Part shown: one piece after another, positions 4,427-21,582 of the stretch
Numbering within the stretch: position 1 is the stretch's first letter
Layout of the letters: each line of letters begins with the position of its first letter
NCBI GenBank assembly: GCA_022571985.1
Contig: JACZWU010000002.1
Coordinates: 124,001 to 188,000 of the forward strand
DNA: 64,000 bases
Direction: 5' to 3'
From: Candidatus Zixiibacteriota bacterium
GTDB lineage: Bacteria > Zixibacteria > MSB-5A5 > GN15 > FEB-12
Made by a program: the position numbers and the translations under genes
Notes under the pieces: model-generated
Database searches by the model: none
Told to the model about the DNA's origin: nothing
The model's input: only the letters and a program-made list of their open reading frames with translations

Positions 4427-4739
4427 CCGGGAAAAGCTCCTTAATCTATCTAAATAATATCGGCCGATATGAGTATCACTAATAAAAATAGACTGTCCCG
4501 AGTGGCCGGTCAACTTTATAAGTGAAATGTCTGAAGTTTTGAGAGTAAACTCTGTCTTAGAGAATTTAATCTTAGCGTCAAAAAGCGGCGAGGCTGAGAA
4601 ACTCACCAAGTGAGCTTGCGTTTTGGGCAGATTTGATTATAATCCGAATCTGATTTTGGCCGACTATGGTAATGCATCCTTTTGGTCAAATGTCGGTATG
4701 GAAATAGTGAATACCCCGGTGGTTTGATAAGAAATTGAT

Positions 4740-4813
4740 GGGCGGTTAGCTCAGCTGGTTAGAGCACCTGCCTTACACGCAGGGGGTCACTGGTTCGAAT
4801 CCAGTACCGCCCA
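4740..4813 (+). tRNA. tRNA-Val (anticodon TAC)
   Basis: The 74-nt sequence folds as a cloverleaf. The acceptor pairs are GGGCGGT/ACCGCCC with discriminator A4813, the anticodon stem is CCTGC/GCAGG, the anticodon TAC is at 4774-4776, and the T-loop contains TTCGAAT. No CCA is encoded. Confidence 0.96.
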
Positions 4814-4925
4814 TATTGAGTTTGGCCGGGTTTGCCAGTACTGCCGGTCAGACAGATAGAAAGTTGCCAAAATCGGCAGTCGGCTTAAGCAAAGCTGACG
4901 ATAGAGATATGTAAGTAATTTGTTC

Positions 4926-4999
4926 GGGGTCGTAGTTCAGTTGGTTAGAACGCCTGCCTGTCACGCAGGAGGCCGCGAGTTCGAGTCTCGTCGACCCCG
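4926..4999 (+). tRNA. tRNA-Asp (anticodon GTC), island integration site
   Basis: The 74-nt cloverleaf has acceptor GGGGTCG/CGACCCC, discriminator G4999, anticodon stem CCTGC/GCAGG, anticodon GTC at 4960-4962, and T-arm GCGAG-TTCGAGT-CTCGT. The serine recombinase gene on the opposite strand ends at 4961 inside the anticodon loop, so the 3' half of the tRNA doubles as the end of that coding sequence. This is the layout expected where an element has integrated at the tRNA 3' end while keeping the tRNA intact. Confidence 0.96.
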
Positions 5000-6433: not shown

Positions 6434-6618
6434 CGCTTCCGCCCCCTCTCTGAGAGCAGTTTCTGAATATGATACTGCTGGATTTTGTTTGGCCTCGTGT
6501 GACCATTCAGCCACCGGCTGACGGTCACAAAAGCCACGCTCAATAGATCGGCCAACTCCTTCTGCGTGATGCGATGCTCAAGGCGATAATTGTCGAGTCT
6601 TTGTATTAAATCAACCAT
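6430..6618 (-). CDS. Small XRE-type helix-turn-helix regulator
   Basis: This 62-aa protein is almost only a Cro/CI-type HTH (RITQKELADLLSVAFVTVSRWLNG, residues about 17-40) with a basic tail. It probably controls the recombination operon and perhaps itself. Its stop overlaps the start of the serine recombinase, which indicates translational coupling. Three 10-bp direct repeats overlap its start codon and are a plausible binding site. Its length is short for the family but the HTH is complete. Confidence 0.8.
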   Translation of the reverse strand: MVDLIQRLDNYRLEHRITQKELADLLSVAFVTVSRWLNGHTRPNKIQQYHIQKLLSERGRKR

Positions 6619-6645
6619 ATCTCATAATATATCATAAGATATCAT
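6616..6645 (-). promoter_or_regulatory. Three 10-bp direct repeats (operator candidate) over the XRE start
   Basis: On the plus strand the units read CATATCTCAT, AATATATCAT and AAGATATCAT, exactly one helical turn apart. The block overlaps the XRE start codon (6616-6618) and the stop of the tyrosine recombinase. It is also an imperfect palindrome (6617-6642, 22 of 26 positions). Spacing and position fit an autoregulatory operator; this is inference. Confidence 0.5.
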
Positions 6646-7745
6646 TTGTCAAGTCTTATTCCCGCATTCTGTAATGCCTTCCTGAGCTGATTAGGACTGA
6701 TAGATTTCTGGGAATTGGCCACGTCTGGGTTGAAATCCATTACGGACAAAACTTCGCTGACACGATCGTCATCAAGGGTTCCGTAACTACGAAGGGTTGT
6801 CATCACCTGCTCATGGCCGATGTTTTGACTCAATGCCTTCAGTTCTTCTGGCGTACTGCAACACTTGAGGGCAATATGCACATGAGCATGGCGGTATGAA
6901 TGTGGATTGAAATAGGGCAAACACGCTACCGCCGAGCGCATCTTTAGAATGTCTCTGATACTATTGCCCCCTTTCCAGAATAAAGGTTCTACATTATTGG
7001 CTTCAAAGACACTCCCATCCGGTGCCTGAGTCACCCTGGTGCGTGGGAACAACGGGTCATGGGGACCATACTGCCTGATCTGCACGAGATAGTTAATCCA
7101 TTCTCCAATGGTCTTGACTAATAGATCATCAAACGGGAGAATATGAGACGTGATCGTCTTGCCTGACTTGGTTTTCACACCCTGCCTCGGGTCTTGATAG
7201 ATAACTTGTCCTTCAATGTCAATACAGCACAGGGGAAGGCTGCAAGCTGCCGAGTAACGTATACCGGTCAGAAGCATAAACGAGATCAGTGCACGATCCC
7301 GGCGATCCATCTCAGTTTCAATCTTGATCGAGTCCACCAGCGACTTCACTTGTTGCAGAGATGGAAATCTTTTTGGCTGAGTCGCCAGGGCTTCCTGCTT
7401 ACTTCGTCTATCCATTGTTAGGTAGGAGACTGCATCGAGGCTAATTCGAGACCGGAAACCTTGCTGGGTTGACAGCCAGGTAAAGAAGGCCTTGACATGC
7501 CTTAACTGATGATACCTGGTCGTTACTGATAACTTGCGGCCCCGATTAACCTTTTCATTAAGCCACCTCTTGAATCCAGTTGCCTGCCTCTCACTGAAAG
7601 TCGCGAAGTCCTGATAGCTTGTCGACTCCTCAAACAGATGTATAGCTCTTTCAACTACTACGATGGTTGATTCTGAATGCCCCTTTGCCTCCCTTAGAAG
7701 CTTGAAGTATCTCCTCTTCACTTTTTCATTCCGTGCATTTGCCAT
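6642..7745 (-). CDS. Tyrosine recombinase (phage integrase family)
   Basis: This 367-aa protein has a SAM-like N-terminal core-binding domain (about 10-110) and a C-terminal catalytic domain. Catalytic residues can be followed: R163 in TGIRYSA, Lys in the beta-turn near KTKSGK (191-196), H282 and R285 in PHSYRH, H311 in IGHEQV and the nucleophile Y321 in RSYG. It therefore looks active. It lies 6 bp after the zinc-ribbon HTH gene and 23 bp before the XRE gene. Having an intact tyrosine and an intact serine recombinase in one operon is uncommon; one may handle integration and the other an internal or resolution step, or one may belong to a nested element. Confidence 0.9.
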   Translation of the reverse strand: MANARNEKVKRRYFKLLREAKGHSESTIVVVERAIHLFEESTSYQDFATFSERQATGFKRWLNEKVNRGRKLSVTTRYHQLRHVKAFFTWLSTQQGFRSRISLDAVSYLTMDRRSKQEALATQPKRFPSLQQVKSLVDSIKIETEMDRRDRALISFMLLTGIRYSAACSLPLCCIDIEGQVIYQDPRQGVKTKSGKTITSHILPFDDLLVKTIGEWINYLVQIRQYGPHDPLFPRTRVTQAPDGSVFEANNVEPLFWKGGNSIRDILKMRSAVACLPYFNPHSYRHAHVHIALKCCSTPEELKALSQNIGHEQVMTTLRSYGTLDDDRVSEVLSVMDFNPDVANSQKSISPNQLRKALQNAGIRLDK

Positions 7746-7751
7746 GCCGTT

Positions 7752-8249
7752 TCATCCTATTCTCGAGTCAGTGTTACAGTAAGGGATTGAAATACCTGAT
7801 AATCTCTTATCTGCTTGCTGTAGTTTCGTCCACCAAACTGACTCACAAATCGACCTAAGGGATGCAAGCCGTACCACCTTTCCACGGCAGTGGGGACACT
7901 CTGCTCGTACGACAACCAGTTTCGAGTGGTGGCCCAATCTTCGATCAGTGACTTCAATCGAGACTCTATCAGGGCGAGGGATCACTCCTGTTGCACATCT
8001 AAGGCAATAAATTTCATCGGGGCCGAGCGCAGTCCGCCTCTTTTCCAGCCTGGTTTTTAAGAATGACCTTGTTGTATTTCCCAAGAATAGAAGCGGTCTG
8101 GTTTGCTCGTCAATAGCCGACATTCCTTGCTTATGCCAACTCTGAATCGTTCTAACATGAACATCCAATACCTCCGCCAACTCTCGCATAGTATATGACC
8201 GATGCAACCGGAGTCGCATCCGATTTCGCCTACAGCTCCGACGACTCAT
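7752..8249 (-). CDS. Excisionase/MerR-like HTH protein with zinc ribbon
   Basis: The 165-aa basic protein starts with a Arg-rich arm and a helix-turn-helix (residues about 18-42, YTMRELAEVLDVHVRTIQSW), then has four cysteines as CLRC (C82, C85) and CPHC (C118, C121) that would bind one zinc. It is probably a directionality factor or DNA-binding helper for the tyrosine recombinase, whose gene starts 6 bp downstream. The start could also be the internal Met at residue 11. The upstream small ORF overlaps it by 20 bp. No family name was recognised with certainty. Confidence 0.7.
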   Translation of the reverse strand: MSRRSCRRNRMRLRLHRSYTMRELAEVLDVHVRTIQSWHKQGMSAIDEQTRPLLFLGNTTRSFLKTRLEKRRTALGPDEIYCLRCATGVIPRPDRVSIEVTDRRLGHHSKLVVVRAECPHCRGKVVRLASLRSICESVWWTKLQQADKRLSGISIPYCNTDSRIG

Positions 8250-8436
8250 CAGACTCTCCTTTTCGCCAGGCTCTCAACAGTTCGAAGAACTCAGCCAAGT
8301 TTCGACAGGATTCCTCGTATTCGGTTTGAGACATTTTTTGGCACAAGAAAACCACAGAGCCATTCTTGTCTGGAGTATCCATACACGCGGAGTCTTTCAG
8401 TTTCTCCTGAGTCGAATGCTTGGTCTGGCGTGTCAA
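8230..8436 (-). CDS. Small hypothetical protein at head of recombination operon
   Basis: A 68-aa frame with a TTG start at 8436 (GGGTGGTG upstream) overlaps the following HTH gene by 20 bp on the same strand. It is charged, with an acidic C-terminus (GESDESSEL) and one predicted helix (residues about 36-58). I do not recognise it. The operon-like overlap is the main support for its being real; translation could instead begin at an internal Met. Confidence 0.45.
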   Translation of the reverse strand: MTRQTKHSTQEKLKDSACMDTPDKNGSVVFLCQKMSQTEYEESCRNLAEFFELLRAWRKGESDESSEL

Positions 8437-8460
8437 ATGTCACCACCCGGCGAATAAAGA

Positions 8461-8499
8461 ACCCGGAAGGCTGATCTGACTTGAAGGCACCTTCCGGGT
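8461..8499 (-). terminator. 10-bp inverted repeat downstream of the QueC-like gene
   Basis: ACCCGGAAGG (8461-8470) and CCTTCCGGGT (8490-8499) are perfect inverted arms with a 19-nt loop. On the minus strand the hairpin is followed by TCTTTATT. It lies between the QueC-like gene and the recombination operon and probably separates the two transcripts. The 8437-8695 stretch otherwise holds no convincing gene. Confidence 0.5.
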
Positions 8500-8695
8500 C
8501 CCGGCCACATTGGCCTGAGACTGTTCTGTTTGTCAGATCACTGACGCCTTCAGCTCCAATTGGCGATAAATCGATATGGACTGGAAAAAAGATCAGCTCA
8601 AGCCTGTTCCCACAGGCTAACAGAAAGACTCATATAGATTTGCATTGTGAAAAATCTTGGTATTTATCTTGGATGAAACTGCGAGAACTCGCAGA

Positions 8696-10543
8696 TCAGG
8701 ACTTGCCGGACATTTTATCGAAGATTTGGAACTTAGCCACCCAGCCCACCTTTTTCTTGTATGGTGCTATAGGATTGTCAGTCAATCCGAAAAAGTAACG
8801 GAGTACTTTGTTAAGTTCCTCTATCCTTTTCTGCGTTGGACGTTTGAATCCCTTTGCGTCCCAGTTCAAAGTCCCGTTGTTCATAGCAAGTGTTTCCAAT
8901 AGGTCCCATTGCTTGTTTAACATATCCACCCTGCGGCGGTCGCGAAAGCCCATGTCAAAGCCGTGGAATCGTTTTGTGATGCTCCCTACCCGTACGACAA
9001 GAGATTCCCTGGACACCATATCGATCTGGATGTCCTTCCACTGAGTCCCCGGTGGGGTTGGGAAGAGTTTTGGTGGCCCATTTCCAAGCTTCCTATGGCC
9101 ACGTTTGCCAACAATCATTCCGAGAAGCGAGTTGGGTGGAATCCGCCCCTTCCGGATTTCATCGGAGTGCTTCGAGATTTGGCTGGTGATCACTTCCGCT
9201 GCCTGTCGGCCGTGTCGTTCATGAAGGTCATAGAGTAGTTGCCCTGCCTCAGCTATAGGCAAATCAATCTCCCGGGCAATGACAAAACAATCGGGGAACC
9301 GCTCGTAGAAATCGTCAATTCCGATATCTTCAAGAAACCTTGCGTGACCGATGTAATTCTCGACCATTTTTCGCTCGTCTTTTTTCCCCAGCGGATCAAG
9401 AAAAAGCCGGGTTTGATACATCTCCTCCGGATCGAAGTCTTCTAAGTCGTTGTTTAGGATGGCCAGCCGACGCTCAATGCACTGCGAGCAAGTGCCACAA
9501 TGTGTATGTAAGCGGGTGCTGCGCATCGTTCGCGTGCAGCTGCGAGAAATCGGTATTAGCTCCTGTCCGTTATGAGCCTTTAATGTTCTGAGGACATCAG
9601 ACTTGGTTTTGCCAAAGAACGGATTCATTACTTTGAACTCATTCTTGAAAATCGCTGAATATAGCTCTGACATTAGTCTCAGAGTCTTGGGATGTGTTGC
9701 CCTGCTGGCCCGTGCCCCAACCACCTGGTTTGAGATTGGCAGATTGCAGCTAACTATACCGTTCTCGTAGAACTTGATCTCCCGTGAGTCCGTCATGGAC
9801 GCAATCACAGCGGCGATGGACGCGTATAAAAAGGATCGTGAGCGTTGATTGGCGTCTCTTGTGATTCCTTTATCCTTGTTGACCCAGACAGGGATGTGGA
9901 GTAAACGACCTGAAGCGTCAAACCTGTTTTTTAGCGCGGCCACGAGGTCCCGTTGGGGCTTGTCAATTTTACTGACGGGTCGGTGGCTAACAAGTAGGAT
10001 CCTGCGGCTGGTGTCCTGAAGCTCCTCAACAACTCCTGTAAGGGAATCCAAGCCACCCGAAAACAGCAGAATCGAATCTGGCTCAAACCACGGCTTACCT
10101 TCGTCAAATTCGAAGTACGAATCTCTTGGCCAATCTCCTACCAGAGGTCTGAAAACGAACCGATAGTCATCATCGGACATGAAGCTGAGCAATTCCGTAA
10201 GTTTATCTGAGACTTGTTCTCTATTCCAAATTTCTGGGTGCCTTACAGGAATTGACAATTCGAATTGACGATACCAATTTCGACCGTTTTTGGGGAAAGT
10301 GCTACCTCCACGAGTTACCGATTGATCAGCTGAGTAGATGTAGGCGGCGATCTCGAGAAGATCGAGTGAAGATGCGTTTAGGTTTTGTACCAACCGTTCG
10401 CTTATGTTCCAGGCTTTAAGATAGACGTTTACATTGGGCGGAATCGAGTTGAGTCTGCGTGTGTACAGAGATTTCTCTCCCCGAGGCGGATCGTCAGGAC
10501 CGCACCATACGCGCACCACATGGTCGTAGTATTCAGCGGCCAC
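8696..10543 (-). CDS. QueC-like PP-loop ATPase (7-deazaguanine-synthase fold) with extra N- and C-terminal domains
   Basis: The 615-aa protein contains a PP-loop core with SGGLDS (162-167) and the QueC-type zinc site formed by C336, C349, C352 and C355 (HCGTCSQC). Housekeeping QueC is about 230 aa; here about 155 N-terminal residues and about 250 C-terminal residues are added, the last 80 resembling a winged helix. Such enlarged QueC relatives are known from antiphage modules (Qat, type IV CBASS), where the chemistry acts on a partner macromolecule rather than making free preQ0. Other queuosine genes are absent here. It starts at GTG 10543, overlapping the upstream partner gene by 11 bp, so the two proteins are probably made together. 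Confidence 0.82.
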   Translation of the reverse strand: MAAEYYDHVVRVWCGPDDPPRGEKSLYTRRLNSIPPNVNVYLKAWNISERLVQNLNASSLDLLEIAAYIYSADQSVTRGGSTFPKNGRNWYRQFELSIPVRHPEIWNREQVSDKLTELLSFMSDDDYRFVFRPLVGDWPRDSYFEFDEGKPWFEPDSILLFSGGLDSLTGVVEELQDTSRRILLVSHRPVSKIDKPQRDLVAALKNRFDASGRLLHIPVWVNKDKGITRDANQRSRSFLYASIAAVIASMTDSREIKFYENGIVSCNLPISNQVVGARASRATHPKTLRLMSELYSAIFKNEFKVMNPFFGKTKSDVLRTLKAHNGQELIPISRSCTRTMRSTRLHTHCGTCSQCIERRLAILNNDLEDFDPEEMYQTRLFLDPLGKKDERKMVENYIGHARFLEDIGIDDFYERFPDCFVIAREIDLPIAEAGQLLYDLHERHGRQAAEVITSQISKHSDEIRKGRIPPNSLLGMIVGKRGHRKLGNGPPKLFPTPPGTQWKDIQIDMVSRESLVVRVGSITKRFHGFDMGFRDRRRVDMLNKQWDLLETLAMNNGTLNWDAKGFKRPTQKRIEELNKVLRYFFGLTDNPIAPYKKKVGWVAKFQIFDKMSGKS

Positions 10544-11297
10544 CTTGTCGGAACTCGCTGGCTAATTTCTTGAACGCAACATGGGCATAACGCCGCACTG
10601 CCTCGGCCCCAGTATCTCCCTCGTATATCGCCTTACCGATCCATCCAGGCGTAAACTCATCGGTGATCCGAACCATCTGTCTGCAGTACAGGTCGAATTG
10701 CCGGGTAAACTCCGAGTGCTCATCAATATTGGCAAATCGCTTTCCTCCACCCACATGGTGCGGCAACTCTCGGCTCAGATAATAGGACAGATACCTGCTC
10801 GTGAATCCTGCGTAGAACTCATGCATCAGCAATTTGAACTGGTTCCCTTTGAAAGCGGCAGTGAGGGATTTGGCGTCTTCTGTTTCCCCGAACAGTGAAC
10901 CCGTCTTCCCCTTCACATTCTTGGTCAGTGACTCAAGAAAGGCGTCCTGGGCAATCTTGCCAACATCGCTTCTGGGATAGACTTGACTGAGTTGATCCGA
11001 GAACCTCTGGGCAACCGCAGAGAGGAAGCCAAAGGATGATGTTTGAGCAGCGGAATCGATCCCAGCTTGCCGAAGAGCCGATTCTGTATCCTTCTCGCGG
11101 GAAGCAGTCGCCAGACCAATGATTTCATTAAGAACACTTAGAAATCCGGGATCAGCTGGGACTCGGTCTAACCCCGTCAGAGAGGCGCGAAAACTCGCAT
11201 TAGCCAATTCGTGAAGATTGGCCCCATTCTCGAGCAGGCTTATTACCTGTTTCCACCTTTGCGTGCGCGGTAGATTGCCTAACCGTAAATGTCCCAT
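10533..11297 (-). CDS. Unknown partner of the QueC-like protein
   Basis: This 254-aa mostly helical protein has no domain that I recognise. It starts Met-Gly-His, and the start is well fixed by AGGAG six bases upstream, so methionine removal would expose an N-terminal glycine. The middle is Ser/Ala/Leu rich; the C-terminal third is more conserved-looking (FYAGFTSRYLSYYL, then FTPGWIG). It overlaps the QueC-like gene and is transcribed from a good promoter at 11371-11399. By analogy with Qat and CBASS QueC relatives it may be the protein substrate of its neighbour; that is inference. It does not look like QatB in length or motifs. Confidence 0.65.
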   Translation of the reverse strand: MGHLRLGNLPRTQRWKQVISLLENGANLHELANASFRASLTGLDRVPADPGFLSVLNEIIGLATASREKDTESALRQAGIDSAAQTSSFGFLSAVAQRFSDQLSQVYPRSDVGKIAQDAFLESLTKNVKGKTGSLFGETEDAKSLTAAFKGNQFKLLMHEFYAGFTSRYLSYYLSRELPHHVGGGKRFANIDEHSEFTRQFDLYCRQMVRITDEFTPGWIGKAIYEGDTGAEAVRRYAHVAFKKLASEFRQGGR

Positions 11298-11370
11298 TTT
11301 GGGCTCCTGGGTCTATTAGTAGCGGTTCTTATTGTCTTTTAACAAGCGTTCCGAGCTGCGAACCAAAATT

Positions 11371-11399
11371 ATAATAGTTCTTCGAATTTCAGTTGACAA
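11371..11399 (-). promoter_or_regulatory. Sigma-70 type promoter for the QueC-like operon
   Basis: On the minus strand TTGTCA (11394-11399) and TATTAT (11371-11376) are separated by 17 bp. The predicted start point is about 65 bp upstream of the partner gene. Confidence 0.55.
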
Positions 11400-11447
11400 G
11401 GTTTGTTAAATCACAATTATCAGAGTGAGTACATCAAAAAATCGGGC

Positions 11448-11476
11448 TTGTTAGTCAGCTAATTAGCCTGTATATT
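11448..11476 (+). promoter_or_regulatory. Sigma-70 type promoter for the methyltransferase operon
   Basis: TTGTTA (11448-11453) and TATATT (11471-11476) are spaced by 17 bp. The predicted start point (about 11483) falls at the beginning of a perfect palindrome, suggesting repression by a dimeric protein. The divergent promoter of the QueC-like operon lies 50-75 bp to the left. Confidence 0.55.
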
Positions 11477-11480
11477 TGTT

Positions 11481-11497
11481 GATTGGGTAACCCAATC
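11481..11497. promoter_or_regulatory. Perfect 17-bp palindrome, operator candidate
   Basis: GATTGGGTAACCCAATC is a perfect palindrome with 8-bp arms around one central base. It overlaps the predicted transcription start of the methyltransferase operon and lies about 60 bp before its start codon. This is the usual place for a controller-protein or repressor site. As RNA it could also form a 6-bp hairpin at the 5' end. Confidence 0.6.
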
Positions 11498-11558
11498 GGG
11501 GTAACGCAATGTCGTTCAATTGGATGATTGACTTAATTAGATAAATGTAAGGTTTTTG

Positions 11559-14500
11559 ATGGACTTATCTGGAAATACATCAAGAATATTCAAAATCCTC
11601 AAAGGGCTTGACAGCCTTGATAGTCTGAAAGACCTCTTTTGGTCCGGTCTTAATTATGATCGCATTGATAAACGAATCTCACGCAAGTCCTGGGGACATA
11701 TATCATCAGACTCTTTGGCCGAGGATCCGATACTTTGGGCGACTGCAGGTGACGGAAATGCTTTTCATATTATCTATTCGCGGTTGGATTCTGATCGATT
11801 GCTTTTAGGACCGCAGCGCGCAGTTATTGAATCGCTTCTAAAAGAACATCCCTACACCCTTTTTGTGTTTTCAAACAAAGTTCAGACCGATTGGCATTTC
11901 GTCAACGTGCGAATGACAAAAAAAACAATAGATGACGAAGAAACTACCAAAAGCCGAGCAACGCGTCGAATGTTTAGGCGCATTTCAGTGGGTGTTGAAG
12001 ATCGGGCTGGTAATCGTCTGCGAACTGCTTCCGAAAGGCTCTCTAAGATTGACATTGAACAGATCCAGACCACAAACCAAACACCCACGCCTTTGGAAAT
12101 TCAGAAAGCTCATGATACGGCCTTTGACGTAGAAAAGGTCACTGAGCTTTTCTACGACGAATACAAAAAAGTTTTTGACCATCTTCAAAACGATCTTGTC
12201 AGCCAAACAGCTGATAAGAAATGGGCACATGACTATTCGTTGCAGTTTTTGAATCGATGCACTTTCATTTATTTCGTCCAACGTAAGCTATGGCTGAATG
12301 AAGACCCGAACTTTCTCTATTCATTTTGGAAAACATATTTGAAAGCTAAACAACCACAGGACACATTCTGGGAAAAGTGGCTCAATATATTATTTTTTGA
12401 GGCTTTCAATGAAAAGTTTCATGGAGGTCATCGACATTTTCCAGATAATATCAAAGCAGCTCTTCAAACTGCCCCATTTCTGAATGGTGGATTGTTTGCC
12501 GAAAATGACCTGGATAACAAATACGATGGGCAATTTTCGATTACTGATTCTCGTTTTGAAAAAGTCATCGGCTTCTTAGACAGATTCAATTTCACAATTT
12601 CTGAAGACACACCACTTGACCAAGAAGTAGCGGTAAATGCTGAAATGCTCGGTAGAGTTTACGAAAGCCTTGTCAATGTGTCGGAAGAAACAGACGAGAA
12701 GGGCGATGCTGGCATATTTTATACTCCTCGAACCGAAATTGACCTTATGTGCCGACTGACACTTGTGGATCACCTGTCCAATCATCTTGGAGACAAACTA
12801 AAACCGATTTTGTATGAAGCTGTTTTTGCCTATTCTGATGAAGAAAAAGGTGAGGCAGACAGACAATTATCCGGGCAAAATCTCTGGCCGAAACTGGAAG
12901 AGTTACTAAACCGTGTGACCGTTGTTGACCCGGCCTGTGGTTCTGGTTCATTTCTGATTGGCATGCTCCAGATTCTTGATGATCTAATAAAGCGAGGTAA
13001 CATAGTAACTGGCCGAGAGGAAACTCCATACGAAAGAAAAAAACGCATTATCGGACAGTCTCTTTATGGCGTAGATGTAATGCGATGGGCCGTTGATGTT
13101 GCGGAATTGCGGCTGTGGTTACAGCTGGTCATTGAAACTGAATTAGAGTCTGCTGAACTCAAATTCAGACCGCTTCTACCAAATCTTTCATTTAAGATTC
13201 GGTGCGGAGACAGTTTAGTTCAAGAAATTGGCGGAATAAATATGGCTCATATGAGGTCTTCACATATGATTTCTCCGGCGATCAAGGGTAAATTAACGAA
13301 ACTGAAGGGAGACAAACTTAAATTCTATAACAGCGTTACACATACAAGACAAGGCAGCGAAAATCGAATAAAGATAGACGAATTATCTCTATTTAAGGAG
13401 ATTCTTGGTGTTGTCGTAGGTGACTTAAGGTCAAAAGTTAGAAGCAGGAAGAACATTTTGAGTAGTTCCTCAGACTTTTGGGGAGAAGAGTCGGGTCAGA
13501 TCTCAGAAAGTAATCGTCGGAAAGCTGAAGAAGAAATTTCTGTTTTTGAACTTGAACTGGAACAGGCTAATCATGGCTTAAAAGCGTTGTCAAAGGGTTC
13601 CAGCGAAGTGCCGTTTGTGTGGGACCTCGCCTTTGTAGAAGTATTCGAAGGAGATAGACAGGGGTTTGACATAGTCATTGGTAACCCTCCCTATGTACGT
13701 CAAGAGAGTATTTCTGACCCAAAGCTTGACCGCAAAGCAGTTACCAAAGAGAATAAAAGGGTGTACAAGAGTAAATTGATCAATTCTGTCTATGCCAAAT
13801 ATCCTTATTTCTTTGGTAATAACCCCACAAAGCCTAAGCATAAGATAGATGCAAAAAGCGATTTATATATCTATTTCTTTTTTCACTGTCTCTCACTTCT
13901 TCATGATAAGGGGTCGTTTTCTTTTATTACTTCCAATTCGTGGCTTGATGTCGGCTATGGCCGGGATTTACAAGAATTTTTGCTCATCAATGGCCGCGTA
14001 AAAATGGTTATCGACAACAAAATTCGGCGGTCATTCAAAAATGCCAGTGTAAATAGCACAATCACACTGTTGGGCAGTCTAACTGAGAAAAAGAATCTCT
14101 ATGCAAAAGAGTCAATACGATTTGTGATGTTTACCGAACCGTTCGAAAATGTTTTAAGCCCAGTCATATTCCAAGAAATTGAATCAATAACAGACCGCCA
14201 GGTCAAGCCGGAATTCAACATACACGCAATTAGTCAACACAATCTCTATGTAGAAGGCTGTGCAATTGAAACTGATTCAGGAGCAACCTCCAAATCGCAT
14301 TCCCGACGCGGTCCACTTTTAAGAGTGGAAAGATATATTGGCAACAAATGGGGTGGCAAATATTTGAGGGCACCTGACATTTATTGGACAATTTTGGAGA
14401 AAAGTAAAGGCAGGCTGGTGCGGCTGGGAGATATTGCTGATGTTCGGTTCGGAATAAAGACAGGTGCAAACGATTTCTTTTACATTCCCAACGACTACGC

Positions 14501-15311
14501 TGAACTTGTAATTAATAAATCAACTACCGTAGTGCTGCCAAAGAATGGAGAATTTGAGCCGTTTAAAATTGAAGAAGAAATGGCACGTCACGCATTATTT
14601 TCTTTAAAAGACATAGATTCCATTGAGAGAATTAGAGAAAAGAATAAGAAGCTGTTGATAGTCCTTCCTCCAGTGGAAAAACACAGGCTTCCACGAGAGA
14701 TTAGGAATTATATCAATTTTGGAGAAAGCAAAGGATATCATCAGCGTCCAAGTTGTACTACCCGTAAACATTGGTATTCAGTTGGATATGACTGGAAACC
14801 CGCACCATTTATATTTCCTTCTAAGATCGGCGAGCGTTTTCTTGTGTATGTAAATCACTTGAGATTGTTGGAAGATAAGAAACTCTATGGCATAACACCG
14901 CACAAGAGCATTGCCAGTTCCGAACAGTGGGCGGTCGTATTGAATTCAAGTTTATTGAGGCTATTCATGGAAATTACTTCCAGGCAATTAACAGGGGCAC
15001 AGGCGATCGCAGATGTAGACGTAACCGTTGTTAAGAATCTGCAAATTCCTAATCCTGAACTGCTGAATAAGTCGGCCTGTCATGCTGCAATAGAATCTTT
15101 CGATCAAAGAGTGGAATCGTGTTTCAAAGAGTTTGGAATCGACAAATCAATCCCCGTACACAATCAAATACCATCTATAATTGCTCCACGATTAGTCCTC
15201 GATAAACTGGTATTTAGTTTGCTTGGGCTTAACTCGCTGGAACAGACGGAAATTTACCTTGCAATCGCGGACATTGTAAAAGCCAGACTTGATAAAGCAG
15301 ACTCGGTGTAA
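11559..15311 (+). CDS. Eco57I-class adenine-specific DNA methyltransferase with novel N-terminal domain
   Basis: This 1250-aa protein has methyltransferase motif I DPACGSGSF (about residue 457) and motif IV NPPYV (about 709), the NPPY form used by N6-adenine enzymes. A TaqI/Eco57I-like recognition domain follows (about 950-1200, RLGDIADVRFGIKTGANDFF). The first 150 residues form a separate domain (LFW near 26, then PYTLFVFSN...DW at 98-112) that also occurs at the start of the 16835 gene. A helical region (160-400) links it to the catalytic part. I see no certain nuclease motif. ATG 11559 is chosen because TAAGG lies six bases upstream; the preceding TTG is less likely. It opens a tight operon with PLD and PLD-SNF2 proteins. 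Confidence 0.88.
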   Translation: MDLSGNTSRIFKILKGLDSLDSLKDLFWSGLNYDRIDKRISRKSWGHISSDSLAEDPILWATAGDGNAFHIIYSRLDSDRLLLGPQRAVIESLLKEHPYTLFVFSNKVQTDWHFVNVRMTKKTIDDEETTKSRATRRMFRRISVGVEDRAGNRLRTASERLSKIDIEQIQTTNQTPTPLEIQKAHDTAFDVEKVTELFYDEYKKVFDHLQNDLVSQTADKKWAHDYSLQFLNRCTFIYFVQRKLWLNEDPNFLYSFWKTYLKAKQPQDTFWEKWLNILFFEAFNEKFHGGHRHFPDNIKAALQTAPFLNGGLFAENDLDNKYDGQFSITDSRFEKVIGFLDRFNFTISEDTPLDQEVAVNAEMLGRVYESLVNVSEETDEKGDAGIFYTPRTEIDLMCRLTLVDHLSNHLGDKLKPILYEAVFAYSDEEKGEADRQLSGQNLWPKLEELLNRVTVVDPACGSGSFLIGMLQILDDLIKRGNIVTGREETPYERKKRIIGQSLYGVDVMRWAVDVAELRLWLQLVIETELESAELKFRPLLPNLSFKIRCGDSLVQEIGGINMAHMRSSHMISPAIKGKLTKLKGDKLKFYNSVTHTRQGSENRIKIDELSLFKEILGVVVGDLRSKVRSRKNILSSSSDFWGEESGQISESNRRKAEEEISVFELELEQANHGLKALSKGSSEVPFVWDLAFVEVFEGDRQGFDIVIGNPPYVRQESISDPKLDRKAVTKENKRVYKSKLINSVYAKYPYFFGNNPTKPKHKIDAKSDLYIYFFFHCLSLLHDKGSFSFITSNSWLDVGYGRDLQEFLLINGRVKMVIDNKIRRSFKNASVNSTITLLGSLTEKKNLYAKESIRFVMFTEPFENVLSPVIFQEIESITDRQVKPEFNIHAISQHNLYVEGCAIETDSGATSKSHSRRGPLLRVERYIGNKWGGKYLRAPDIYWTILEKSKGRLVRLGDIADVRFGIKTGANDFFYIPNDYAELVINKSTTVVLPKNGEFEPFKIEEEMARHALFSLKDIDSIERIREKNKKLLIVLPPVEKHRLPREIRNYINFGESKGYHQRPSCTTRKHWYSVGYDWKPAPFIFPSKIGERFLVYVNHLRLLEDKKLYGITPHKSIASSEQWAVVLNSSLLRLFMEITSRQLTGAQAIADVDVTVVKNLQIPNPELLNKSACHAAIESFDQRVESCFKEFGIDKSIPVHNQIPSIIAPRLVLDKLVFSLLGLNSLEQTEIYLAIADIVKARLDKADSV

Positions 15312-16367
15312 GTGAGAACAAGTATGAAAAAATTCAAGTCCTACATTCAGGGGACAGACACAAGAAATGACCAATTGCTTTCTCTATTAATAGGAGAGTT
15401 CTCCAATTACAAGTACAATATTATATCAATATGTGCAGCATATGTAACTTATAAGGGCTTATTCCTCGTAAGGGAATTACTTTCACAACTTCCCAAGAAT
15501 CGGAGCAGATGGCTTATAGGGACCGACGATTTTATCAGCGAACCAAATGCGATTAGATTAGCATTGTGGACGCGAAATTCGGAAGTTCGAACAGTTTCAA
15601 TGCTACCTAAAGCTCGATTTCATGCTAAGGCATTTCTTCTTGAAAATTCAGACCAAAATCTTGCGACCCTGATTATCGGTTCTAACAATCTCACAGAATC
15701 TGCACTTAAGAAAAACTGCGAAACTTTTACGTTCAGGCGAGCAAAATCAAAAGCAGAAGTAAAGCGATTAAGGAATTACTGGGAACATCTATGGAAACTC
15801 GGTATTCGTGCTGATGAATCCTCAATAGCAAAATATGAAAATCAGCGCAAAAGAAGAAAGGTTTGCAAATTGCCTGATGTGGAGGATGAAAAAACTTCAA
15901 CGCAATCCAGTGCTAAGAAAAAGATGACCAGCATTACCATGCTTTCCACAACTTCTAAAGTCTGGATTGAACTTGGTAAGAATACGGGCGCTGGGGGGCA
16001 GTTGGAAATTGTAAAGCCTCTTGCACCCTTTCTCGGATTACCTAACTCTCCAAGTAAAGGAACCAGTGTCCAATTGAACATGAAAACCCAAAAAGGGTAC
16101 AAGATTTATAATTTGACCTATACCAAAGGAATGTGGCGATTCATGAATCTTCAAAAAGGATTCTACATGAATCTTCGACCAGATCTAAGTCGACCTTCAC
16201 CGTTTATTCTTGTAATCGAATTTTCGAATGGGAATAAGGTTCCTAAGATGAAAGTTCTTCGAAAAACGTTAAAAAAGGCAAAAAAACTTATTGCCAGTTC
16301 GAAACTAACTGGTTTTATAGGAAAATCGATTCCAACTGCGCAGGGAAGGGAATTTGGATGGCTATAA
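15312..16367 (+). CDS. Phospholipase D-like nuclease protein with C-terminal DNA-binding-like domain
   Basis: The 351-aa protein has one PLD half-site: HAK in ARFHAKAFLL and GSNNLT about 20 residues later, the pattern of single-HKD nucleases that dimerise. The Arg-rich middle (about 175-190) looks like a linker. The C-terminal half (about 205-350) is beta-rich and could be a B3-like DNA-recognition domain as in BfiI-type enzymes; that is inference. Translation begins at GTG 15312 directly after the methyltransferase stop, or at ATG 15324; neither has a strong ribosome site, so coupling is likely. It is the best candidate for the cutting component of the system. Confidence 0.75.
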   Translation: MRTSMKKFKSYIQGTDTRNDQLLSLLIGEFSNYKYNIISICAAYVTYKGLFLVRELLSQLPKNRSRWLIGTDDFISEPNAIRLALWTRNSEVRTVSMLPKARFHAKAFLLENSDQNLATLIIGSNNLTESALKKNCETFTFRRAKSKAEVKRLRNYWEHLWKLGIRADESSIAKYENQRKRRKVCKLPDVEDEKTSTQSSAKKKMTSITMLSTTSKVWIELGKNTGAGGQLEIVKPLAPFLGLPNSPSKGTSVQLNMKTQKGYKIYNLTYTKGMWRFMNLQKGFYMNLRPDLSRPSPFILVIEFSNGNKVPKMKVLRKTLKKAKKLIASSKLTGFIGKSIPTAQGREFGWL

Positions 16368-16388
16368 GAAAGAATCACTTTCGATGAT

Positions 16389-16820
16389 ATGAATAAAAAC
16401 AAACCGAAATCAATGAAGCTTGCGGATCTACACGTTGACAAAGAATTCGCACCGCCGCAGGACCCTGTGTTCATGGAAAAGTACATAGCCTACGAAAAAG
16501 GGGATCTGGCACTGCATATAATTATGGTCCCTGCCGTTTTTGTTGTTCCATACAGCCTTGAGTACTTTCCTGAGAAGTGGACGCCGTTTTTGCCTTTTAT
16601 AAATGAACTACGCCAAAAGATTGAAAAAGAAGACTTCAAAAATTTTCCTTATCCGTATGTATATCAGAAGGGGAGGCATTTCGTAGTATCTGATGACTAT
16701 CCGTCTTATTATGCTTTCGTTGAGTCCGGCAAGGCATGGATGTTTTGTAAATGCCTTGGTGAACCCAATCATCCCGATATAAAGGTACTTGGCGGGCCGT
16801 TCACTAAGAAGAAGAAATAA
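16389..16820 (+). CDS. Hypothetical protein in the methyltransferase operon
   Basis: This 143-aa soluble protein sits 21 bp after the PLD gene and 14 bp before the next gene. It has an aromatic-rich centre (VPYSLEYFPEKWTPFLPF) and a segment (GRHFVVSDDYPSYYAFVESG) that faintly recalls ParB/sulfiredoxin-type folds, and a Lys-rich C-terminus. I do not recognise the family. Tight spacing on both sides supports a role in the same system, possibly as an adaptor or immunity-like factor, but nothing in the sequence shows which. Confidence 0.6.
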   Translation: MNKNKPKSMKLADLHVDKEFAPPQDPVFMEKYIAYEKGDLALHIIMVPAVFVVPYSLEYFPEKWTPFLPFINELRQKIEKEDFKNFPYPYVYQKGRHFVVSDDYPSYYAFVESGKAWMFCKCLGEPNHPDIKVLGGPFTKKKK

Positions 16821-16834
16821 TAACGGGGTTTTGG

Positions 16835-17557
16835 ATGGTATCCGTATCTGATCAAATAGAAAGTTATCTCGATAGTATTTCGGATGACAATTCTATGCGC
16901 CACCTCTTTTGGGACATTCTTGAATTTTCACCAGAGGAATTGTCAATTTCCAAGATTGTCCTTTCAAAAAAGTGTCAAAAGTTTGTGGAAAAATTGGATC
17001 TGTTTGGAAGTCGAGGTGCTCATAAATTAATAGTTGCTACTTTGCGCTCTGGGATGCCTATGTCATCCGAACTTCTAAGGCGCATTGCACGAAATCTTCG
17101 GACTTCGTATCCGTACGGTATATTCCTTTTTACAAACTATTCACGACGAGACTGGCGATTGGCGTATTCCGGCAATGGCCGGTCCGACGACCAACTTCTC
17201 ATCCGACTCGGTGTGCCTGGCTCAAGTAAAGTAATTTCAAGAATGTTTACAAAGTTAGCAGACGAAGCCGAAGATGAAGACACTTTGGGATTAGCCAGCA
17301 GGTTCGATGACATTCTGTTAGATTCAAAACTGAGGTCATATAGTCGCCGCCTTGATATGGAAGTGGGCGGTATATATGTAGATCGCAATTACCAATGGTG
17401 GTGTGAATTGGCCAGTAGAAGTCCGTTACTCACACCCGAAGAAGAGAAATCACTTTTTCAAGAACTTGAAGAATTATGGCCAAGAGAAAGGCGCAGAACT
17501 CCTTTCCCCCGGGCTATGCGATACCAGTATGGCGCAAGATTATTCTATCTAACCTGA
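16835..17557 (+). CDS. N-terminal domain shared with the methyltransferase, running into sigma-70 region 1.2 (upstream part of a frameshifted sigma factor)
   Basis: The 240-aa frame starts at ATG 16835. Residues 20-110 align with the methyltransferase N-terminus: S(M/L)(R/K)xLFW, then PYxIFxFTN...DW against PYxLFxFSN...DW at the same spacing after similar beta-strand segments. Near residue 205 the sequence turns into sigma-70 region 1.2 (SPLLTPEEEKSLFQELEE). The rest of the sigma factor continues in the -1 frame, so this frame ends in 13 or so meaningless residues. A T TTC CCC heptamer lies in the overlap. Either programmed -1 frameshifting gives one fusion of about 470 aa, or the two are separate products, or this is a recent mutation or an assembly error. 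Confidence 0.75.
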   Translation: MVSVSDQIESYLDSISDDNSMRHLFWDILEFSPEELSISKIVLSKKCQKFVEKLDLFGSRGAHKLIVATLRSGMPMSSELLRRIARNLRTSYPYGIFLFTNYSRRDWRLAYSGNGRSDDQLLIRLGVPGSSKVISRMFTKLADEAEDEDTLGLASRFDDILLDSKLRSYSRRLDMEVGGIYVDRNYQWWCELASRSPLLTPEEEKSLFQELEELWPRERRRTPFPRAMRYQYGARLFYLT

Positions 17558-18225
17558 GGTTTGTAATCTATATAATTAAGAAACATTTTTGGTCTCCTAC
17601 TGATCCCGATCAAATGGACTTGGTTCAACAGGGGAATTGGGGCTTAATTGAAGCTGTTCATCGTTACGACAATAGTCAAGAAGCAAAATTCATAACTTAC
17701 GCAGTGTACTATATAAAGGCGTACATTTACAAGCACATAGATGAGCAGGCGGACTTAATTAGATTCCCTTTAAATCAAATACAAAAGCTTAGAAAACTTC
17801 GAAGGGTCAGCCGGGAGTATTTTACAGAAACAGGACGGGGGCCTACTATTATCCAATATGCTTATGAAATGGACTGTTCTGAGGAAGAAGTAGAGCGATT
17901 GAAAGAAATGCCAACAATCAGAGTAGGATTGGAAGAAATAATTGAAGATGATCGAGACGAATTGAAATGCTATATTGACCAAGATTTTATCGAGCGTCAT
18001 GAGTTGTTAAGAGAGATAGAGAAAGCTTTTGATTCTCTCACTCCTCGCGAAGCAGAAGTTCTGAATTTATACTTTGGGTTATACAATGATTTGTCACTTA
18101 CTTTTGATGAAATCGCTGCAAGATTTAGTTTGACCCGAGAAAGAATAAGACAAATCAAGGAAAAAGCAATTAGAAGAATGCGGCATGCCAGTAGGTCAAG
18201 ATCTTTGAGAGCGTACTTAGTATAG
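17476..18225 (+). CDS. RpoD-like sigma-70 family factor (regions 2-4)
   Basis: The 249-aa frame carries region 2.1-2.4 (LRFVIYIIKKHF, DLVQQGNWGLIEAVHRYD, FITYAVYYIKAYIYKHI), region 3 (about 105-140), and region 4 with LTPREAEVLNLYFGL and the HTH FDEIAARFSLTRERIRQIKEKAIRRM. Region 2.4 differs from housekeeping RpoD (YYIKAYI in place of WWIRQAI), so its promoter choice may differ. Region 1.2 is encoded upstream in the other frame (16835 gene). An independent start at ATG 17476 has only a weak ribosome site. It would direct RNA polymerase to dedicated promoters, possibly those of this island. A sigma factor inside a methyltransferase/helicase operon is unusual. Confidence 0.85.
   Translation: MAKRKAQNSFPPGYAIPVWRKIILSNLRFVIYIIKKHFWSPTDPDQMDLVQQGNWGLIEAVHRYDNSQEAKFITYAVYYIKAYIYKHIDEQADLIRFPLNQIQKLRKLRRVSREYFTETGRGPTIIQYAYEMDCSEEEVERLKEMPTIRVGLEEIIEDDRDELKCYIDQDFIERHELLREIEKAFDSLTPREAEVLNLYFGLYNDLSLTFDEIAARFSLTRERIRQIKEKAIRRMRHASRSRSLRAYLV
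17503..17509 (+). other. Candidate -1 ribosomal frameshift site T TTC CCC
   Basis: The heptamer fits the X XXY YYZ slippery form in the frame of the 16835 gene. After a -1 slip, translation continues CCG GGC TAT in the sigma frame and restores a continuous region 1.2-2 sigma sequence. Eight bases downstream GCGATACC...TATGGCGC can form a small bulged hairpin. The site is in the 82-bp overlap of the two frames. Confidence 0.45.
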
Positions 18226-18249: not shown

Positions 18250-21200
18250 TTGAGCGACATTATAGATAACAGAAGTAAACAGCTTGTAGATCAAATCCAA
18301 ACGATTCTCCCTTCTTCTGAAGTGGCACGATTTGCTGTCGGATATTTTTTTCTATCAGGGTTAATAGGCATTGGCCCAAAGCTGGGCAGCTTGAAAGAAC
18401 TCAAGCTACTTATTGGTAACACTGTTAATAAAGAGACGATTGAGCTATTAACCGAAGGCCATCGACGACTTGACTTGGTTAAAAAACGCCTTGATGCAAT
18501 GCAGTATGCTAAGAGGTCTGACCAAAAGAAATGGGTCGAAGAAACTGCCAAGAATTTGAGAGAGTCAATAGAAGTTATGGATCAAACTGATGAAGGTGAG
18601 CAGATTGTTAAGGTTTTACTGAGACTCATTGAAGAGAAAAAGATAAAAGTACGTGTGTATACTAAAGGCAGGTTACATGCAAAGGCTTATATTTTTGACC
18701 ATAGGTCGCCTGTACCAGGAAACTCAGGAATCGCCATTGTTGGTTCTTCAAATTTGACCTTGTCTGGGATAAGCCACAACACCGAATTGAACGTAGTTGT
18801 GCACGACAATGCGAATTTAGACGATCCGAAAAGCGGTAATCACGGGGAGTTGGTAAATTGGTTCGAGGAACTTTGGGATGAATCTCAAGAATTCGCGTCT
18901 CATCTTGTTAATGAGCTAAAACAATCTTGGGCAGCGCAACTTGCAACTCCTTATGATATCTACATGAAGACTTTGTATACATTGGTAAAAGACCGGCTCG
19001 AAGGAACGGAAGACAAAGAAATCCTTTGGGACGACGACATAACCAGACATCTGGCAGATTTCCAAAAGGTCGCCGTTAGACAAGCAATTCAGATGATTCG
19101 CGAATACGGCGGCTGTTTCGTCTCCGATGTTGTCGGTCTTGGAAAAAGCTATATCGGTGCGGGAATAATTAAGCATTTTGACAGAACCGAACATATTCGA
19201 CCTTTGATTATTTGCCCAAAACCTCTCGAAGAAATGTGGTCTCGTTACAATGAAAGGTATGAATTGAATGCCCAAATTCTGCCTATGAGCATGCTGCAAG
19301 CAGAAGAACGTGGTGTCAATTTGTTTGAAGACCCTCGTTACAAAGATAGAGACTTCGTTCTGATTGACGAGTCACATAATTTTCGCCATCATACTTCCCA
19401 AAGATATCAGCAATTGCAGTCTTTCCTATCAACTGGCAGACGTGTGTGCTTGTTAACAGCTACTCCGCGAAACAGCAGAGCTTTTGACGTATACAACCAA
19501 ATAAAATTGTTTCATCCTGAAGATATAACTGCTTTACCTATTGATCCACCGAATTTGAAAGAATATTTCAAGTCTATTGACAAGGGAGACCGAAGGTTAC
19601 AAGACTTGCTTACACACTTGCTGATTAGAAGAACTCGTCGCCACATTCTCAGGTGGTACGGCTACGCTGAAGACAGTGGTGAACCATTGAGAAATTTTTC
19701 AGATGAAAAGTGTAATGAGTATTTGAATGGTGGCAAACGTGCTTATGTAATGGTTGCAGGCAGGCACCAATTCTTTCCCAAACGAAAGCTCGAAACCTTG
19801 AGATATAGTATTGAAGATACCTATAACGGTCTCTATCAAGAATTGAGAGGGTATCTTGGTCGCCCCTTTCAGCGAGTGCTAAGCAAGGACGAGCTTGCTC
19901 CAAGACATCTTCTGTATGCAAGATACGGAATCTGGCATTATGTAAAGGACGACAAGAAGAGAGAAGCTCCCTATCATGAACTTAAACGTGCCGGAATTAA
20001 CTTAAGAGGTCTTATACGAACAATGCTATTCAAGCGATTTGAATCAAGTGTAGAGGCATTTAGAAAATCGATCAAGAGAATGATTCGTACACATGAAATG
20101 TTCCTCAAATCACTTGAGAATGATATTGTACCAGCTGGAGATGATGTTGATACTCTCTTGGGACAGGCAGGTACCCTTGATGACGAAGATTTGCTCGAAG
20201 CAATCAGTCTCGCATCTGGTAGGTACGATATTTCTGACTTTAATTCCAAATTACTGAAAAAACATGTTGAATCAGATATTTCACTTTTGCGTAAGATGTT
20301 GAAACTTGTCGAAGTTATCACTCCGGCGCAAGACGACAAACTTCAAGTATTTCTAAAAAGGATAAGAAGAACTCCAATCAAGGATAACAAGTGTTTGATT
20401 TTTACTCAGTTCACTGACACTGCTGAGTATATATTTGCAAACCTCAATCCCAAAAATAAAATTGAAGATATTGACATCATCTTCGGTGCAGATAAAAGTA
20501 AAATGAGAATGGTTCGAAGATTTGCGCCTAAATCAAATCCTGAACTTCCTCCAAAAACTTTTGAAAACGAAATAAGATTACTTGTAACAACGGATGTACT
20601 TGCTGAAGGATTAAATCTGCAAGATTGTAATGTTGTTCTAAATTATGATCTCCATTGGAACCCGGTAAGGCTAATTCAGAGAATTGGTAGAATTGACAGA
20701 ATTGGCACCGAGCACGAGACAGTGTACGGCTTAAATTTTCTTCCAGAGACCGCACTTGAAAAAGAATTAGGTATTGCAGCACTTTTGAGCGGTCGAATTC
20801 AAGAGATTCATGATACTATAGGTGAAGATGCTGCGATTCTTGATAATAGCGAAAAGCTAAATTCAGACGCAATGTATTCAATCTATGTCAAGGGTGAATT
20901 TAGCAACCTCGAAGGTGAGGAGGATGAGCTTATGGACCTTTCTGAGGCAGAGGAATTCTTCCGAAATTTGGCCAAAGACGATCCTTCCGAATATGAAAGA
21001 ATTGTCAATCTTCGAGATGGAATTCGTGCAGCCCGCAAATCGAACGAAATAGGCACTTATGTTTTTTTCCAAGCGGGTCGCTATAATAAACTGACTCTAT
21101 GGGGAAAAGATGGTCAAAAACTAACCAGTGATATTCCCCATGTTTTACGTGCCGTTGTTGCAAATAAATATACTGAATCAAGTTCATCTCTTCCTAAAGA

Positions 21201-21582
21201 TTTCAATAAAATAGTAATGAAGGCTAAGAATCAGTTTGATATCGATGTTCAACATCAAGAGTCATTCCGATACCATTCCTTTTCATTAAGTCCTGCTCAA
21301 CGTTACGTGCTAAGGGAATTGAGAGCTCTGTATGCCCTTACAGAAGAAGATGACGACAAGTCAATGATAAATAGGCTTGAAAAAGCTTTCCGAATGACCC
21401 CTACAGCGGCAGTTTCAAAAGAGCTGAACTCTATTAGACGAAACAGCATGATGGGTCAAAGTATGCAAAAAGCCCTTATAACGATATTTCACAATCACAG
21501 ACTTTCGGACAGATTATCTCGGGCCGATCTTGAAATTGAGAGATTAGAGATTCCACGAATTATATGTAGCGAAGCTTTGTAA
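18250..21582 (+). CDS. SNF2-family helicase/translocase with N-terminal PLD nuclease domain
   Basis: The 1110-aa protein starts at TTG 18250 (GGA about eight bases upstream; an in-frame stop lies just before). Its N-terminal domain is PLD-like: HAK in RLHAKAYIFD and GSSNLT (about 140-180). The SNF2 motor follows: Walker A GLGKS (about 297), DESH (about 374), TATPRN, and the C-terminal RecA lobe with TTDVLAEGLNLQ, NYDLHWNP and QRIGRIDRIG. A helical insertion of about 200 residues separates the lobes. Such PLD-SNF2 proteins are often next to Eco57I-class methyltransferases, so it is probably the translocating and cutting arm of a restriction-like system. It ends the operon; no hairpin terminator is seen after it. 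Confidence 0.88.
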   Translation: MSDIIDNRSKQLVDQIQTILPSSEVARFAVGYFFLSGLIGIGPKLGSLKELKLLIGNTVNKETIELLTEGHRRLDLVKKRLDAMQYAKRSDQKKWVEETAKNLRESIEVMDQTDEGEQIVKVLLRLIEEKKIKVRVYTKGRLHAKAYIFDHRSPVPGNSGIAIVGSSNLTLSGISHNTELNVVVHDNANLDDPKSGNHGELVNWFEELWDESQEFASHLVNELKQSWAAQLATPYDIYMKTLYTLVKDRLEGTEDKEILWDDDITRHLADFQKVAVRQAIQMIREYGGCFVSDVVGLGKSYIGAGIIKHFDRTEHIRPLIICPKPLEEMWSRYNERYELNAQILPMSMLQAEERGVNLFEDPRYKDRDFVLIDESHNFRHHTSQRYQQLQSFLSTGRRVCLLTATPRNSRAFDVYNQIKLFHPEDITALPIDPPNLKEYFKSIDKGDRRLQDLLTHLLIRRTRRHILRWYGYAEDSGEPLRNFSDEKCNEYLNGGKRAYVMVAGRHQFFPKRKLETLRYSIEDTYNGLYQELRGYLGRPFQRVLSKDELAPRHLLYARYGIWHYVKDDKKREAPYHELKRAGINLRGLIRTMLFKRFESSVEAFRKSIKRMIRTHEMFLKSLENDIVPAGDDVDTLLGQAGTLDDEDLLEAISLASGRYDISDFNSKLLKKHVESDISLLRKMLKLVEVITPAQDDKLQVFLKRIRRTPIKDNKCLIFTQFTDTAEYIFANLNPKNKIEDIDIIFGADKSKMRMVRRFAPKSNPELPPKTFENEIRLLVTTDVLAEGLNLQDCNVVLNYDLHWNPVRLIQRIGRIDRIGTEHETVYGLNFLPETALEKELGIAALLSGRIQEIHDTIGEDAAILDNSEKLNSDAMYSIYVKGEFSNLEGEEDELMDLSEAEEFFRNLAKDDPSEYERIVNLRDGIRAARKSNEIGTYVFFQAGRYNKLTLWGKDGQKLTSDIPHVLRAVVANKYTESSSSLPKDFNKIVMKAKNQFDIDVQHQESFRYHSFSLSPAQRYVLRELRALYALTEEDDDKSMINRLEKAFRMTPTAAVSKELNSIRRNSMMGQSMQKALITIFHNHRLSDRLSRADLEIERLEIPRIICSEAL

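Follow-up and report, generated by a model that had tools for sequence, protein, structure and literature searches.

A sigma-70-like protein sharing the N-terminal domain of a DNA methyltransferase in a restriction-modification-like operon of Candidatus Zixiibacteriota

Why should a DNA methyltransferase and a sigma-70-like protein encoded in the same operon begin with the same domain? The question is raised by a locus within a stretch of 64,000 nucleotides from a Candidatus Zixiibacteriota bacterium (contig JACZWU010000002.1, positions 124,001 to 188,000 of the forward strand), hereafter called the window. To answer it, the relationship of the two N-termini, the occurrence of similar fusions elsewhere and the properties of the sigma part have to be considered in turn.

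Operon organization and the common N-terminal domain

The locus comprises six reading frames which are all located on the plus strand, with short gaps only. Across 12-22 kb of the window the G+C content drops from 0.47 to approximately 0.40, which fits an acquired block. The first gene (11559-15311) encodes an Eco57I-class N6-adenine DNA methyltransferase (MTase) of 1250 amino acids, which is PglX/Type IIG-like (Pfam Eco57I, E 8e-29; MmeI_Mtase, E 4e-12; PADLOC REase_MTase_IIG, E 2e-51). Its N-terminal domain (approximately residues 1-189; 11559-12125) belongs to no Pfam family and is retained in MTases of the Cyanobacteriota, the Chloroflexota and the bacterium's own phylum as well as in those of viral contigs; the part found also in the sigma protein covers residues ~1-115. 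Two genes classified as cargo follow. The first codes for a NgoFVII-like member of the PLD (HKD) superfamily of nuclease-like proteins with 351 amino acids (15312-16367; PLDc_2, E 1e-6; RE_NgoFVII, E 2e-4, below the cut-off), the second for a protein of 143 residues (16389-16820) that revealed no known family in Pfam, PADLOC or NCBIfam and no plasmid homologue. The sigma-like protein is encoded by two reading frames, ORF1 (16835-17557) and ORF2 (17476-18225). The last gene (18250-21582), the second core gene of the operon, encodes an HKD (PLD)-SNF2 helicase of 1110 amino acids (PADLOC HKD+Snf2, E 2e-70; NCBIfam phospholipD_antiphage, E 1e-48; DrmD, E 2e-40; RapA, E 4e-12). The NgoFVII-type-like PLD protein shares an operon with a helicase that already carries an HKD nuclease domain.

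Divergently from this operon, a protein resembling QatC (E 1e-57, short of the curated cut-off) and an unnamed partner of 254 amino acids are encoded on the minus strand (8696-11297); neither QatA nor QatD was recognised beside the QatC-like protein. The defence genes are adjoined by tRNA-Val, tRNA-Asp, a tyrosine integrase gene (6642-7745, minus strand) and a gene for a small HTH protein that matches mad1 weakly. It is possible that this region (4739-8249) is the edge of an island; repeats of tRNA ends marking the island were not detected to any noteworthy extent.

The preliminary description of this DNA had claimed that the MTase and the product of the gene starting at 16835 resemble each other at their N-termini, and this was borne out. 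The MTase blocks LKDLFW and PYTLFVFSN....DW correspond to MRHLFW and PYGIFLFTN....DW in ORF1 with equal order and spacing, and a pairwise BLASTP of the two N-termini yielded E 6e-5 (single comparison). A profile of 15 MTase N-termini matched ORF1 with 35.0 bits (E 9e-10), a score topping all other non-MTase ORFs of the collected loci and far above the background, as the best of 5000 shuffled sequences reached 7.7 bits. This profile had been rebuilt without two loci that were retrieved through the sigma N-terminus, since the pattern selecting them included the sigma protein. In a motif scan of 84,980 genomes, two loci were found, both with MTases of the same kind, which matched the sigma N-terminus directly (E 4e-9 and 1e-8, single comparisons). 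A profile-profile comparison, the check proposed along with the claim, aligned the MTase family to both known sigma copies over 127 columns with a probability of 98.9% (E 1.1e-17). Judged by these comparisons, the N-termini of the MTase and ORF1 are homologous and the domain is common to both proteins.

Two details of the claim need correction. The resemblance had been said to extend over 110 to 150 residues, of which the lower figure agrees with the window protein (residues ~3-110) and the upper one does not; in the second protein treated below the domain extends to residue ~130. Moreover, a sigma-70 factor had been placed behind the domain within the ORF at 16835. Only sigma region 1.2 (residues ~185-214) lies there, separated from the domain by a linker. 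ORF1 ends past this region, and regions 2, 3 and 4 are encoded by ORF2 (Sigma70_r2, E 6e-10; r3, E 2e-7; r4, E 3e-15), which overlaps ORF1 by 82 bases in the -1 frame.

A second fusion and the MTase-helicase core

When all collected loci were searched by tblastn, one of them, L085, matched both ORF1 and ORF2. This is a 27-kb contig of a viral collection; its retrieval rested solely on the MTase domain, and the sigma protein played no part in it. Its gene order is that of the window: an MTase (7896-11747) is followed by a protein of 428 amino acids (11875-13161) and a helicase (13139-16480). The 428-residue protein unites the shared domain and sigma-70 regions in a single ORF. It aligns first to ORF1 over 219 residues, that is nearly all of ORF1 (E 2e-11), and then to ORF2 (E 2e-14), contains sigma regions 2 and 4 according to Pfam, and its N-terminus matched the profile made of MTases only with 65.9 bits (E 1e-18). 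As the fusion exists as one ORF in L085, it is recurrent and the copy in the window is the split one. If the two frames of the window are joined, a protein of approximately 463 amino acids results, in which regions 1.2 and 2.1 are connected by a linker of 25 residues, compared to 24 in L085. These nearly equal lengths indicate that the two halves belong to one protein, encoded by what was a single gene or is still translated as one. In a phylogenetic tree the two sigma-borne domains clustered, with weak support (68-89%) and on long branches; a single origin of both is likely but not proven.

The MTase and the HKD-SNF2 helicase, either adjacent or with a short run of genes between them, were found in the window and at about 18 other loci. 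The pair is present in plasmids of Thermus, Halorussus, Thermococcus and Anabaena, and also in the own phylum of the bacterium, in Chlorogloeopsis and other Cyanobacteriota, in the Chloroflexota and on two contigs of the viral collection. Since the same two genes recur across these loci, they are regarded as the core of the system. The genes between them vary from locus to locus and include HEPN/MNT, PIN, Uma2, XisI, DUF3644, Mrr_N and AbiEii. Due to this turnover, the interval can be described as a cargo slot, and it is this slot that the sigma protein occupies. Most of the other loci examined possess different cargo or an empty slot. The operon is a restriction-modification (RM)-like system consisting of the MTase and HKD-SNF2 helicase core and a cargo slot of variable content. 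At L048, L074, L075, L081, L082 and L011, the slot was observed to hold toxin-antitoxin pairs (HEPN/MNT, PIN, AbiEii) as well as Uma2, XisI and DUF3644. Of the two viral-collection contigs carrying the pair, L085 and L086, one has it next to a Mu-F-like gene and the other next to a capsid gene, suggesting that (pro)viruses may carry the MTase-helicase system.

How often the sigma fusion occurs was addressed by profile searches of 918 genomes, 132 belonging to the bacterium's phylum and the others sampled from two further phyla (400 and 386). With a profile including the sigma copy, every further copy of the domain turned out to be part of an MTase-sized frame or a short piece, and the short pieces examined were truncated or internally deleted MTase genes rather than stand-alone domains. 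Such remnants of the MTase N-terminus exist at the cyanobacterial loci L072, L116 and L118, one of which has an internal deletion fusing the N- and C-terminal ends. A direct search of plasmids, phages and viral contigs with ORF1 did not yield homologues, and with L085 as query no further sigma fusion was found, plasmids and phages included. The scan of the 84,980 genomes gave MTases only; it was based on a pattern which diverged sigma fusions would escape. The preliminary description had named a repeated co-occurrence of the domain with sigma factors as supporting evidence. This was encountered in so far as a second, unrelated contig bears the fusion in the same slot, with the number of loci standing at two. 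The sigma fusion is rare yet recurrent: two loci on two unrelated contigs, in the same slot.

Sigma body, domain fold and relation to known systems

Both proteins belong to the sigma-70 family, with the core-binding and -35-reading residues of regions 2 and 4. In both, the Pfam domains Sigma70_r2 and Sigma70_r4 scored above the cut-off, and the -35 contact residues of region 4.2 (R-E..R-Q) are retained. In region 4 the window protein shares 81% identity with the RpoD of its host (88% in the 4.2 part), against 41% in region 2 and 26% in region 3. As this identity of region 4 persists although synonymous sites are saturated, selection must have acted on region 4 and the sigma body. By its sequence, the sigma body is close to a host-type RpoD. 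On the other hand, the W-W dyad of region 2.3, which is involved in promoter melting, is lost in both proteins, being replaced by YY in the window and by RA in L085. The sigma finger (region 3.2) is affected too, by a deletion of nine residues in the window and by the absence of most of region 3 in L085. Both bodies have thus lost promoter-melting parts of a housekeeping-type factor. This argues against an ordinary sigma factor but not against membership in the wider sigma-70 family.

For the shared domain, structure models were of limited quality. The sigma N-terminus, modelled with four sequences, reached a mean pLDDT of 62.7, with residues 11-110 averaging 74-90 per block of ten residues, and the MTase N-terminus a mean of 56. 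In both models, helices and strands follow each other in largely the same succession; pLDDT values of 63 and 56 are too weak for a superposition. The best fold match of the sigma N-terminus was the N-terminal endonuclease domain of DrdV (Z 6.9, within the range below 8 in which the best match may be due to chance; rmsd 3.9 Å over 113 residues), residues 5-148 of the model being aligned to 2-144 of the chain. Several PD-(D/E)XK nucleases appeared lower in the same list amid unrelated entries. DrdV was absent from the fold matches of the poorer MTase domain model, all E-values of Foldseek searches with the domain models exceeded 0.01, and a sequence search of the PDB with the domain profile gave no credible match. 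The DrdV match is nevertheless an attractive lead, because the endonuclease domain of DrdV occupies the corresponding position, N-terminal to an MTase of this type. A conserved D...(E/Q)xK catalytic set was not seen by eye in the family alignment, and for this reason the shared domain probably lacks nuclease activity; the helicase, with its HKD domain, is the more likely agent of cleavage. The shared domain may be a degenerate restriction-endonuclease-like module. In the higher-order complexes of DrdV, a Type IIG enzyme, endonuclease domains pair with their own kind (PMC11997821).

Among described defence systems, MzaA is the nearest sigma protein. Mza is an anti-phage operon encoding a sigma-70 family protein, and the sigma regions of the window match the MzaA profile (NF041931, PDLC02203) with E 2e-51. 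Yet, the match covers only the generic sigma part (positions 476-714 of 726), is barely better than that of RpoD and amounts to 176 bits at a cut-off of 800, and ORF1, with the 240 N-terminal residues, remained without a match. Furthermore, none of the partners MzaB-E (MutL, Z1, AIPR) was detected among the operon proteins by Pfam, PADLOC or NCBIfam. For these reasons, an identification of the operon as Mza was rejected.

With DISARM, ARMADA, BREX and the BREX-related (BR) systems the operon shares a PglX-like N6-MTase and an SNF2 helicase of the BrxHII/DrmD/RapA-like type. According to PMC12839542, Type-2 BR consists of an HKD-SNF2 protein, an N6-MTase, a DUF499 ATPase and DUF3780, and its helicases likewise bear an N-terminal HKD nuclease. 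A scan of ten proteins at the locus revealed neither DUF499 nor DUF3780. The window MTase scored 42 bits against the PglX profiles, whose cut-off is 500, and neither PglZ nor BrxC was recognised in the operon, which accordingly does not qualify as BREX. Nor does it qualify as DISARM, as a DrmD-like protein and weak DrmC and DrmMI matches in separate proteins are not accompanied by DrmB, DrmA or a YprA-type helicase in the operon. A sigma protein of this kind is not described in the text consulted from PMC12839542 and PMC12458937; BrxL of BREX, as far as the available text on it goes, has a sigma-like HTH only, in contrast to the full sigma-70 regions present here. Searches of the open-access literature for sigma factors in such systems brought up no description of the arrangement seen here. 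Type IIG/IIL enzymes (DrdV, MmeI) resemble the window MTase by an Eco57I/MmeI-type MTase with an N-terminal domain and are probably distinguished by the D...(E/Q)xK set, which was not seen to be conserved in the window family.

A further lead, and only that, is dCas12f with its partner sigma factor, where a defence-derived DNA-recognition protein acts together with a dedicated sigma factor. Recognition by dCas12f is RNA-guided, whereas the sigma protein of the window has instead a domain in common with the MTase.

Possible functions of the sigma protein

The explanation preferred here, to which we assign a probability of about 40%, is that the sigma protein is an accessory which uses the shared domain to link RNA polymerase with the defence complex. 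The sigma factor of approximately 463 residues, either ancestrally intact or produced after a -1 shift, would be an accessory of the two-gene core, its N-terminal domain being a diverged copy of the MTase domain. It might pair with the MTase N-terminus or replace it on a partner, e.g. the helicase, whereby RNA polymerase would be coupled to the modification/helicase complex and to the modification state of the DNA. Two outcomes are conceivable. In the favoured one, the complex would hold the sigma protein until unmodified DNA is engaged, and the released factor would then drive the defence operon; in the other, the complex would guide the polymerase to sites with or without the mark. Because the copies reside in one operon and the fold is weakly matched by a self-pairing Type IIG endonuclease domain, a role of the shared domain in docking or dimerisation is more likely than one in signal input. 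The motor part of the helicase resembles RapA, a partner of RNA polymerase. Against the accessory role count the small number of two fusion loci, the DrdV match being no better than chance best scores, the loss of melting parts from both sigma bodies and the split gene of the window, from which the full-length protein is perhaps not produced. A more far-reaching notion, that the RM-like complex controls promoter choice and that a sigma factor with the MTase's interface domain converts the encounter with unmodified DNA into a change of transcription, is possible but doubtful. Such a change could switch defence genes on or stall phage transcription; with the melting elements lost, stalling is conceivable alongside the activation of defence genes.

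The same loss could also mean that the protein is a trap, binding core RNA polymerase and -35 DNA without being able to open promoters and, once its N-terminal domain contacts the defence complex on phage DNA, stalling transcription at that place or titrating the polymerase. The missing dyad and finger in both proteins, together with the preserved -35 contacts, are what such a trap would look like. However, sigma factors devoid of the W-W dyad or a classic finger, for instance ECF factors, can be active, and the trap is considered unlikely. A plain autoregulation is about as improbable. In that case, the protein would serve its own operon as an alternative sigma factor, and the domain derived from the MTase would merely bind DNA or confer stability, without any link to the MTase. 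A putative promoter-like site, TTGACA-16-AATTAT (11393-11420, plus strand), is located upstream of the MTase gene, another promoter-like site precedes the L085 operon, and region 4.2 matches that of the host RpoD. Such sites often arise by chance, though, and autoregulation leaves unexplained why exactly the MTase domain has been kept in both fusions.

It is likewise rather unlikely that the gene is decaying in the window, with an ancestral fusion, functional as in L085, split by the deletion of a single base or appearing split through an assembly error. Decay would agree with the single ORF of L085, which needs no shift, and with the weak context of the -1 shift in the window. The frame switch must fall within 17470-17557, where TTTCCCC (17503-17509, plus strand), an in-frame heptamer of the X XXY YYZ type, is a candidate slippery site, suggestive only, that is not followed by a strong structure (RNA fold z -1.2, not significant). 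A programmed -1 frameshift is no more likely as the cause of the split than the loss of one base or a faulty assembly. By contrast, the MTase and helicase genes of the operon are intact, ORF2 has an ATG of its own and region 4 is conserved, which is not expected of a decaying gene. That the two N-termini, with a pairwise identity of only ~23%, resemble each other by chance is refuted for practical purposes by profile scores far above those of shuffled sequences and other ORFs, and by the fusion in L085.

The regulation of RM systems is usually ascribed to small controller proteins or to the MTase itself. If the accessory role is true, a sigma factor equipped with the MTase's own domain would constitute a direct route from 'not self-marked DNA' to RNA polymerase. 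Thanks to the single-ORF fusion in a second system, this idea is testable with purified parts. A link of this sort has not previously been described in the open-access literature searched, and the two fusions raise the possibility of a physical connection between DNA marking and transcription.
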